From assembly GCF_041270065.1 (NCBI RefSeq), contig NZ_CP065958.1:3038001-3102000 (forward strand): 64,000 nt of DNA, read 5' to 3'. A program made the position numbers and the translations under genes. Shown here piece after piece: positions 533 to 2,030 of this stretch (position 1 is its first letter; each line of letters starts with the position of its first letter). The notes below the pieces were generated by a model. It was given only the letters and a program-made list of their open reading frames with translations. It made no database searches and was not told the DNA's origin. The stretch is from Streptomyces fradiae (GTDB lineage Bacteria; Actinomycetota; Actinomycetes; Streptomycetales; Streptomycetaceae).

Positions 533-796
533 TCAGACGGCCGCCTTCTTCAGGCGGCGGCGTTCGCGCTCGGACAGACCGCCCCAGATACCGAAGCGCT
601 CGTCGTTCTGCAGCGCGTATTCGAGGCATTCGGAGCGGACCTCGCAGGCGAGGCAGACCTTTTTCGCCTCCCGGGTCGAGCCGCCCTTCTCGGGGAAGAA
701 GGACTCGGGATCGGTCTGGGCGCACAGTGCGCGCTCCTGCCAGCCGAGTTCCTCGTCCGCGTCCTCGACCAGCAGTTCCTCGAACAACTCGGTCAT
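533..796 (-). CDS. whiB: WhiB, Wbl-family iron-sulfur developmental transcription factor
   Basis: An 87-residue Wbl protein. Four cysteines (C25, C48, C51, C57; C-X22-C-X2-C-X5-C) should bind a [4Fe-4S] cluster. The G-[IV]-W-G-G turn is GIWGG at 69-73, followed by a basic tail (RERRRLKK) for DNA contact. The sequence is nearly identical to what I recall of S. coelicolor WhiB (SCO3034), which acts with WhiA and the principal sigma factor at sporulation-septation promoters. I chose the internal ATG giving MTELFEELL; an in-frame ATG 21 nt upstream would add a non-conserved seven residues. The gene is followed by repeat-rich spacer and preceded by a long intergenic region. Confidence 0.95.
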   Translation of the reverse strand: MTELFEELLVEDADEELGWQERALCAQTDPESFFPEKGGSTREAKKVCLACEVRSECLEYALQNDERFGIWGGLSERERRRLKKAAV

Positions 797-1235
797 GTGC
801 GCCCCTCGTCCGTCCATTGCGTCCCCGTGATTGGCCGTCTTCGATCCGGGATCGATCCCGGATCAGTCCCGGCCGAACGACACGAGTGAAATTACAAGTT
901 CGTGCTCTGTGCGAGTCAAGCCGAGATCTGCTATTGGGCCCCGTATTCACTCTGCGGAACCAAGCCTATGCGGAAAGTGTTCAAATCACCAAAAACCTGA
1001 CACATGCCACGGGCCTGTCCGCACCGTCACGCCCCACACAGAAGGACGTCCGGGAGTCGAATCCTGTTGCGATTCGGCCACGGAAGCGATCCGGATCACA
1101 GTCTGATCACAAGACCCCCACCGTGTTTACGGCGCCGGTTGCTGCGCCATGTCTCCTGGTCACGCGGTGCGCAAACCTTTCTTCGCGCACTGTAACCGGA
1201 TGAGGTGAAACATTGCCGCCAAATCGGGCATTGGG
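797..1235. other. whiB upstream region, no gene seen
   Basis: About 440 bp between divergent whiB and the cysteine dioxygenase leader. The composition is more AT-rich than the flanks, as expected for promoters. It contains the 843-864 palindrome and a GATCAC-AGTCT-GATCAC direct repeat near 1095-1111. S. coelicolor whiB is known to have more than one promoter; I cannot place start sites here. Six-frame reading gives only low-complexity shadows. Confidence 0.6.
843..864. promoter_or_regulatory. Perfect 22-bp palindrome in the whiB leader
   Basis: Two abutting perfect arms, GATCCGGGATC and its reverse complement, lie 47 bp upstream of the whiB start codon. A partial third arm (GGATCAGTCCCGG) follows. 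The position suits an operator or a hairpin in the whiB 5' leader. No binding protein can be named from sequence. Confidence 0.55.
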
Positions 1236-1271
1236 TTGACAGTCGGGTGTCCCTCACGCCACTTTGGTGGC
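1236..1271 (+). promoter_or_regulatory. Promoter for a leaderless transcript starting at the Cys-rich uORF
   Basis: A perfect -35 TTGACA (1236-1241), 18-bp spacer and a -10 CACTTT (1260-1265; matches the TANNNT-type consensus at its A and final T). The expected start point, about seven bases downstream, coincides with the A of the uORF ATG at 1272, so the mRNA would be leaderless. This is inferred from spacing only. Confidence 0.55.
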
Positions 1272-1367
1272 ATGCCAGCGACCGCAGCGCTCTTCGCGAC
1301 CCACGCCCGTGGGTTCCGCCGCGCTGTCCAGACGCGTTCCTGTCGCTGTTGCTGTCCCAGCTGTTGA
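1272..1367 (+). CDS. Cysteine-rich leader peptide (31 aa uORF) upstream of cysteine dioxygenase
   Basis: A 31-codon ORF whose last eight residues are C-R-C-C-C-P-S-C before TGA: five cysteines in eight codons. It has no Shine-Dalgarno but starts exactly where the promoter at 1236-1265 should initiate. The next gene, 114 nt downstream, is a cysteine dioxygenase. Leaderless uORFs with a terminal Cys tract that respond to cysteine supply by ribosome stalling have been described in mycobacteria. By analogy this would be a cis-acting cysteine sensor coupling cysteine level to its catabolism. The ORF and Cys tract are seen directly; the attenuation role is inferred. It could be chance, but Cys is very rare in GC-rich random ORFs. 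Confidence 0.65.
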   Translation: MPATAALFATHARGFRRAVQTRSCRCCCPSC

Positions 1368-1481
1368 TGCGCGCGTTCTGCGTCTAGCGCTCCAGCCCCT
1401 TCGCGGCCGCCGTCCCGCCGCCGCTGCCTCACCCCTTGCTCTGCGACACCCCGCACTTCTGCCGAGGAACCACCGCATCCC

Positions 1482-2030
1482 ATGAACATGGACAGCGACC
1501 TTCAGATCGCCGGCGACATCCTTGAGGTCCCGCACCTCCTGCAGCCCGCCCGCGAGCACCCCGCCACCGTGGCCGAGTTCGCCGGTCTCGCCCGCGAGAT
1601 CGCCGCCGACCGCGCCCTGTGGGCCCCGTACGTCGAGTACGACGCCACCACCCGCTGGTACCACCGGCTGCGCACCGGCCCCGGCTACGAGATCTGGCTG
1701 CTCTCCTGGCTGCCCGGCCAGGGCAGCGGCCGGCACGACCACGGACAGTCCTCCGGCGTGCTCACCGTCCTGTCGGGCGAGTTGACGGAGCGTACGGAGC
1801 GGGGCGGGCGGAGCCTGGACGCGGGCGCGCAGCGCGTGTTCGCGCCCGGGTACGTCCACGAGGTCGTCAACGACTCCCTCGAACCCGCCGTCAGCCTGCA
1901 CGTCTACTACCCGGGCCTCACCGACATGCCGATGCACGAGTCGACGCGCGAGTCGCCCGAGTCGATGCACGAGTCGCTGACCTCACAGTGCGGCTCTGCC
2001 CCGACGGCCCCCGGAGTCGTCACCGCCTGA
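1482..2030 (+). CDS. Cysteine dioxygenase type I
   Basis: A 182-residue cupin enzyme that oxidises L-cysteine to cysteine sulfinate with Fe(II) and O2. The cupin motif G-S-G-R-H-D-H-G places H85 and H87, with H126 (APGYVHEV), as the Fe-binding His triad. The chain is near the bacterial family length. A repetitive C-terminal tail (STRESPESMHES) is not part of the fold. ATG at 1482 is preceded by GAGGA with a long 13-nt gap; a second ATG six bases on is possible. Position behind a Cys-rich uORF suggests cysteine-responsive expression. fbiA starts 13 bp downstream, so the transcript may continue. Confidence 0.88.
   Translation: MNMDSDLQIAGDILEVPHLLQPAREHPATVAEFAGLAREIAADRALWAPYVEYDATTRWYHRLRTGPGYEIWLLSWLPGQGSGRHDHGQSSGVLTVLSGELTERTERGGRSLDAGAQRVFAPGYVHEVVNDSLEPAVSLHVYYPGLTDMPMHESTRESPESMHESLTSQCGSAPTAPGVVTA

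Follow-up and report, generated by a model that had tools for sequence, protein, structure and literature searches.

The cysteine dioxygenase (CDO) gene of the window (the whole stretch of 64,000 nucleotides that was analyzed) is preceded by a short open reading frame (ORF) with a Cys-rich end, which recurs before the CDO genes of other Streptomyces. We read this ORF as a leaderless cysteine-sensing leader, in which scarcity of Cys-tRNA would free the CDO start from pairing with the Cys codons and thereby turn CDO on, and we assign this reading a probability of about 0.55. The leader probably uses ribosome stalling to switch CDO on at low cysteine. Ribosomes would load on the 5'-terminal AUG of the leader, pass a conserved hairpin, and reach the Cys tract just 5' of the TGA stop codon. 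As RNA, the Cys codons would pair with the CDO start (codons 2-7 in Streptomyces, and the Shine-Dalgarno (SD) sequence in several sister genera) and keep CDO closed. When Cys-tRNA is scarce, ribosomes would dwell on these codons, the tract could no longer pair, and CDO would be translated. With low cysteine as the ON state, the leader would work like the mycobacterial polycysteine attenuators, and CDO would be grouped with sulfur-acquisition genes.

Leader ORF, promoter geometry and target gene

The sequence-only reading had placed a Cys-rich ORF of 31 codons ahead of a gene that degrades cysteine. The ORF is present, ends with TGA, and is conserved across the family, and the gene behind it is a CDO gene, its protein matching the Pfam family CDO_I (E = 1.9e-20, 73.5 bits, with a cut-off of 23). 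Its relatives in the PDB carry the name cysteine dioxygenase (best E = 1.4e-11), NCBIfam gave no match for the protein, and the genome holding the window contains one CDO match. The CDO of S. coelicolor is reportedly active on cysteine. Ergothioneine dioxygenase, briefly considered as the identity of the enzyme, was set aside because no relevant literature was found. The coordinates of the features are collected in Table 1.

Table 1. Positions of the leader, its RNA elements and the CDO gene in the window.
Feature	Position	Strand	Basis
-35 box TTGACA	1236..1241	+	sequence; TTGAC kept at 36-37 nt before the leader ATG
-10-like box CACTTT, ending six bases 5' of the leader ATG	1260..1265	+	sequence; predicted
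Leader ORF with the Cys tract, 31 codons and a TGA, predicted to be leaderless	1272..1367	+	sequence and conservation
Stem A, conserved hairpin within the leader ORF 5' of the Cys tract	1284..1327	+	compensatory pairs, pooled with hairpin C
Cys tract (C R C C C P S C), which may sense cysteine and act as antisense to the CDO start	1341..1364	+	
Hairpin C, AGCUG of the leader end (1359-1363) with CAGCC of the spacer (1393-1397)	1359..1397	+	
SD sequence of CDO, GAGGAA	1464..1469	+	sequence; conserved in alignment A2
CDO gene, 182 aa	1482..2030	+	Pfam CDO_I
AUG and codons 2-7 of CDO, predicted to pair with the Cys tract	1482..1502	+	

The leader encodes the peptide MPATAALFATHARGFRRAVQTRSCRCCCPSC, with the C-terminus SCRCCCPSC. 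It starts with the ATG at 1272 and stops at a TGA (1365-1367) 114 nt before the CDO start. The claim of a good promoter stood for the -35 box, which is perfect, but not for the CACTTT box 18 nt downstream of it, which agrees with TATAAT at two of six positions; a consensus promoter scan of 1000-1600 called no promoter. Rfam at gathering thresholds gave no match within the window. In 119 of 121 Streptomyces loci, TTGAC starts 36-37 nt 5' of the leader ATG, and an SD-like motif 5' of this ATG is found in none of the 121. Judged by sequence, the layout is thus of the leaderless type that had been proposed, with the putative transcription start at the leader ATG and no SD sequence.

A search of the same genome with a leader profile returned the window leader with an E value of 1.1e-12, and the next of the 25 matches had 0.06. 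Six other matches were translated, and none of them carried a Cys tract. A second match of the leader peptide in this genome (L002) is antisense to an EF-hand-like gene and was judged to be due to chance.

Conservation within Streptomycetaceae

All 392 Streptomyces genomes searched have a CDO match. The 121 loci that we compared come from the genome of the window, 40 of the 392 genomes, and 80 named records (the best 80 of 401 loci); both sets are biased to the strongest CDO matches and partly overlap, leaving 108 distinct mRNAs. The leader finder considered ORFs starting with ATG and having at least three Cys in the last 16 positions, and took the best one. A leader with a Cys tract, 29-38 codons long, is present at all 121 loci, so that the proposed search of other Streptomyces revealed no loss of the tract. 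Every leader stops with TGA, and the last residue is Cys in 118 and Arg in three. The number of Cys residues ranges from 3 to 7, with 5 or 6 in 101 of the leaders. The Cys-TGA motif stays in the leader frame at all 121 loci, and the spacer to CDO falls into all three mod-3 classes (48/37/36).

There are two main flavors of the leader, MPATxAPSATHARGFRRAVQARCCCCCPSC and MLANLALTSTRTAGSHGAARARCSCCCCSSC, and the N-terminal part varies between clades. One clade has alternating Cys residues (RCICTCTCSSC and alike) and keeps the Cys while the sequence has changed. A divergent locus of the same genus (L154) has the weaker tract CRCPRGCHTPC. In other genera of the family, a Cys leader was found at 19 of 21 loci (not at L139 and L146), and 16 of the 19 end with Cys-Arg. 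The Cys-rich leader is not due to chance. It combines a Cys cluster with a downstream cysteine-metabolism gene, as polycysteine attenuators do.

Predicted pairing of the Cys tract with the CDO start

The Cys tract resembles (GCTGTT)n, and CDO codons 2-7 (AACAGCGACAGCGAC in the most frequent type) are complementary to it. Among the Cys codons of the leaders there are 513 TGT and 158 TGC, compared with 17 TGT and 117 TGC in the long ORFs of the window. Synonymous recoding of the leader side according to the codon usage of the window weakened the duplex in 76 of 77 distinct pairs (median z -2.7), and recoding of the CDO side did so in 77 of 77 (median z -1.6). When the tract was recoded, its modeled share of the CDO start fell from 0.59 to 0.29, being lower in 35 of 36 mRNAs. 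Partition functions of the 108 mRNAs gave a mean pairing of the region from the CDO AUG to codon 7 of 0.58 with the tract, 0.04 with the spacer, and 0.002 with the 5' part of the leader. For the mRNA of the window itself, the predicted probability that the CDO start pairs with the tract is 0.49.

A consensus fold of 24 aligned leaders recovered six pairs of the helix between the tract and CDO. Besides the window, this alignment (A2) contains 23 of the 80 named loci, with lengths of at most 270 nt and identities below 95% where lengths are equal. In the helix, 96.5% of the cells are paired, as opposed to 17-67% in slid registers. Covariation was not found in this helix; it hardly varies, and no change on both sides was seen. 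Matched tracts and CDO starts had a modest advantage over pairs swapped between species, 2 of 200 swaps being as good. Of the three CDO start types, only MNSDSD was the best partner of the tracts that occur with it (40 of 41, compared with none of 15 for MNMDSD and none of 13 for MNSDND), and the start type switches about five times on the tree of the 80 loci. When 90 windows of the CDO gene were ranked by duplex energy, the CDO start had a median rank of 8, which is not decisive.

Among the 19 leaders of other genera, seven were modeled. The tract is predicted to pair with the SD sequence at 0.61-0.69 in five of them and at 0.57 in a sixth, and the seventh (L135) shows no such pairing and a value of 0.26 with the CDO start. 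The leader suggests that one stretch of codons serves as sensor and RNA lock at once.

Modeled ribosomes and the sign of the response

Since the predicted partner of the Cys codons is the CDO start or the SD sequence, a ribosome held on these codons should open CDO. We modeled the ribosome with an assumed footprint of 12 nt behind and 16 nt ahead. The CDO start is free at 0.31 without a ribosome and at 0.50 once a ribosome occupies the first Cys codon, an increase seen in 102 of 108 mRNAs. The corresponding values are 0.51 for a ribosome in the middle of the tract, 0.39 at the leader stop, and 0.31 on stem A. The stall at the first Cys codon does not raise the freedom of the SD sequence (mean 0.57 to 0.54). 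In the window's own mRNA, the effect on the CDO start is small (0.45 to 0.51 upon stalling, and 0.32 with a ribosome at the stop). In five of the seven modeled leaders from other genera, a ribosome in the middle of the tract lifts the freedom of the SD sequence by at least 0.2. From this anatomy, CDO would be ON at low Cys-tRNA.

The same sensing leader could in principle have the opposite sign: at plentiful cysteine, ribosomes would clear the tract, and this would turn CDO on, for example by a stop-coupled step or by Rho acting in the C-rich spacer. Such a sign would suit an enzyme that degrades cysteine, and induction at plentiful cysteine was what the sequence-only reading had expected. Against it, the modeled ribosome on the tract opens rather than closes the CDO start, and no intrinsic terminator was seen in 1000-1600. 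Published transcriptomes bear on the sign as well. Two genes of S. coelicolor, SCO3035 and SCO5772, are presumably CDO genes. In a study of H2O2 treatment, whose figures, like the others cited below, are mRNA levels of whole genes and not leader effects, SCO5772 and SCO3035 are induced 8.0- and 6.5-fold and called hypothetical (PMC4991794). According to the same study, 28 genes rise upon the treatment, none of them in an hbpS-senS-senR mutant, and the induced genes include SCO6097-6102, SCO4164 and SCO2910 for cysteine biosynthesis and SCO6094-6096 for sulfonate uptake (PMC4991794). SCO3034 is given as whiB in a further report (PMC4255298); therefore, SCO3035 should by its position be the orthologue of the window CDO. 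Because the response of SCO3035 needs HbpS-SenS-SenR, it may be transcriptional, which we count against a stalling mechanism.

Two CDO genes of S. shaoguanensis stay low up to 48 h and are raised at 96 h, and its cysD/NC/C/H genes are lowered at 24-48 h and raised at 96 h (PMC12763843). In Streptomyces sp. SCUT-3, cdo1 and cdo2 are reported to be up 50- and 8-fold in Cys-rich feather medium (PMC7181669). This rise can be read as induction by plentiful cysteine, but the cdo genes of SCUT-3 are not tied to the present locus. As the tract closes the CDO start or SD sequence in the models, and CDO moves together with cysteine-biosynthesis genes in two of these transcriptomes, the expected sign is not supported, and we regard induction at plentiful cysteine as unlikely. 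As a separate observation, the 28 genes in Table 1 of the H2O2 study are, as listed there, mostly sulfur genes, of which several kinds are preceded by Cys leaders in the genome of the window (PMC4991794).

There is no clear physiological reason for making a cysteine-destroying enzyme at low cysteine, and this counts against our preferred reading, in which stalling at low Cys-tRNA opens CDO. If that reading is true, the wiring of a cysteine-destroying enzyme for production when cysteine is short would be a paradox amenable to testing.

CDO loci outside the family

In a search across the class, 54 of 118 genomes had CDO, and eight of these belong to the genus. The set from outside the family consists of 42 CDO loci from 41 of 46 CDO-bearing genomes, with five genomes left out. 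An upstream ORF with at least three Cys in its last 8 residues is present at six of the 42 loci, in contrast to none of 42 antisense controls. Three of the six (L172, L183 and L188) were attributed to chance, having GTG starts 197-277 nt before the match and no visible promoter.

The other three leaders look real from their sequences. The leader of L167 is MTGLLLVVRATSGAGGRCCRCC, and those of L175 and L176, which belong to one genus, are MRCCC. In all three, a promoter-like sequence at the leaderless distance is visible by eye. They are unrelated in sequence to the family leader and come from two other families. The MRCCC codons of L175 and L176 are predicted to pair with the CDO start at 0.42-0.43, with the SD sequence pairing with the short spacer at 0.39-0.40. 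For the tract of L167, the models give hardly any pairing with the CDO start (0.02). At L180, from the same genus as L175 and L176, MQSCR with one Cys left stands at the same place. We count both of these loci against the stalling model. Because there are three believable leaders among the 42 loci, most CDO genes beyond the family are without such a leader, and this also counts against the model. We tentatively propose, with less than even confidence, that actinomycetes gained unrelated Cys leaders before CDO more than once, with CDO as part of a low-cysteine response for sulfur acquisition; in these bacteria CDO would then serve sulfur salvage or redox defense and not the disposal of surplus cysteine.

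Hairpins and a possible leader acting only as RNA

When stem A and hairpin C are pooled, 92.5% of the cells are paired, as opposed to 32-43% in slid registers. In 19 cells both sides had changed, which is above all of 500 shuffles; counted by pairs, four changed on both sides, which is within the shuffles (176 of 500), and the shuffles show more additional pair types. Hairpin C has a pairing probability of about 0.41 in 31 mRNAs and is abolished by a modeled ribosome at the leader stop. It links the region of the last Cys codon to the conserved spacer element GCTCCAGC. Two other elements were discarded. A switch taken from the consensus fold, in which the spacer element GCUCCAGC would pair with the SD sequence, has a probability of about 0.01 in 31 single mRNAs, and the 3' arm of stem A was not seen to act as an anti-SD, the 5' part of the leader holding the 0.002 of CDO-start pairing given above.

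The conservation of stem A would also suit a device in which hairpins and the pairing of the tract with the CDO start tune CDO translation, the Cys residues being a by-product of (GCUGUU)n and ribosome movement on the leader mattering at most for melting the hairpins or the pairing. Pairing likewise favors TGT. Third codon positions of the Streptomyces leaders are no more variable than the other positions; the leader thus lacks the codon pattern of a conserved peptide, and no conservation of the peptide itself is visible. However, the reading frame is kept in 121 of 121 loci, the clade with alternating Cys retains them in spite of its changed sequence, and a Cys cluster likewise closes the unrelated leaders of two other families. 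We therefore consider a device acting only through RNA quite unlikely. A functional small Cys-rich peptide beside CDO, binding metal or taking part in redox binding for example, is very improbable, since the prevalence of five or six Cys is offset by the variable N-terminal part, a Cys number of 3-7, leaders as short as MRCCC, and the failure of the tested peptides to match Pfam or NCBIfam.

Relation to known leader families

Mycobacterial polycysteine leaderless ORFs reportedly follow a logic in which low Cys-tRNA is the ON state. The likeness to these ORFs, which had been pointed out from the sequence, extends to the whole build and is family-wide before CDO: a short ORF of the leaderless type, Cys codons near its end, and a cysteine-metabolism gene next to it. 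As in mycobacteria, a ribosome on the Cys codons is predicted to free a downstream start. In contrast to the mycobacterial ORFs, the window leader differs in sequence, contains a conserved hairpin, and has as its target an enzyme that degrades cysteine. Leader-peptide attenuation of the trp/his type also employs a leader ORF in which codons for the amino acid concerned are abundant. Unlike that type, no intrinsic terminator was found here, the predicted control is at the translation start, and the target is catabolic. A Cys-rich uORF before cysA2 is described in an earlier study (Shell 2015, PMC4633059). No description of the present CDO leader was found in the open-licence literature. Within this literature the leader class is new, and its position before a CDO gene is unexpected. 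It is probably the same kind of device as the mycobacterial polycysteine attenuators, and would extend cysteine sensing by ribosome stalling to a new class in a genus whose metabolism has received much study.

Of the leader families in NCBIfam, NF042933 and NF042936 are the mycobacterial polycysteine families Ms5788A and Ms4527A. Neither these two nor NF042934 ('putative leader peptide', cis_reg_atten) matched the window leader or five typed relatives at E values up to 1. NF042934 leaders have a motif of the [HV]-[VM]DLxR...C type and few Cys, whereas the window leader is without this motif. NF042934 matches the genome of the window at eight sites, five above the cut-off and three slightly under it (C1:2892081, 6475738, 893070, 4570094, 4289221, 3339883, 480753 and 706359), and 14 control genomes have none over the cut-off. 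By eye, the genes behind these eight leaders are CysO-like, sulfite-reductase-like, ABC-permease, isopenicillin-synthase-like, rhodanese, symporter-like and flavin-reductase-like genes and one unnamed gene, so that the leaders mostly stand before apparent sulfur-acquisition genes. The leader ahead of the rhodanese gene is also over the cut-off of NF042933 (45.5 bits, with a cut-off of 45). At seven sulfur-gene stretches of this genome, no poly-Cys ORF of the CCxC or CxCC type was found, and a motif search of the same stretches found an NF042934-type leader at two.

A second CDO paralog, absent in the genome of the window, occurs in other Streptomycetaceae. At 14 of its 19 loci, a Cys-containing short ORF lies at leaderless spacing from TTGAC. 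At these loci (L214-L232), the short ORF, such as MTDTCVRLWRRVHMDLVRYAGCVCRPSC, is 133-385 nt upstream of the tblastn CDO match. The genus-type leader of this paralog scores 37.1 bits for NF042934 (cut-off 27), and two examples from other genera score 20.9 and 24.8 bits, under the cut-off. A scan for dense Cys misses the leaders of this paralog, which have few Cys.

Neighboring genes

The neighbors of the leader and CDO are a WhiB gene (533-817, minus strand) and, downstream of CDO, CofD and F420-ligase genes. In the stretch from 2028 to 2046, cofD begins 13 nt past the CDO stop, and a -10-like CAAACT is located seven bases 5' of its ATG. Because of this box, cofD may own a leaderless start.
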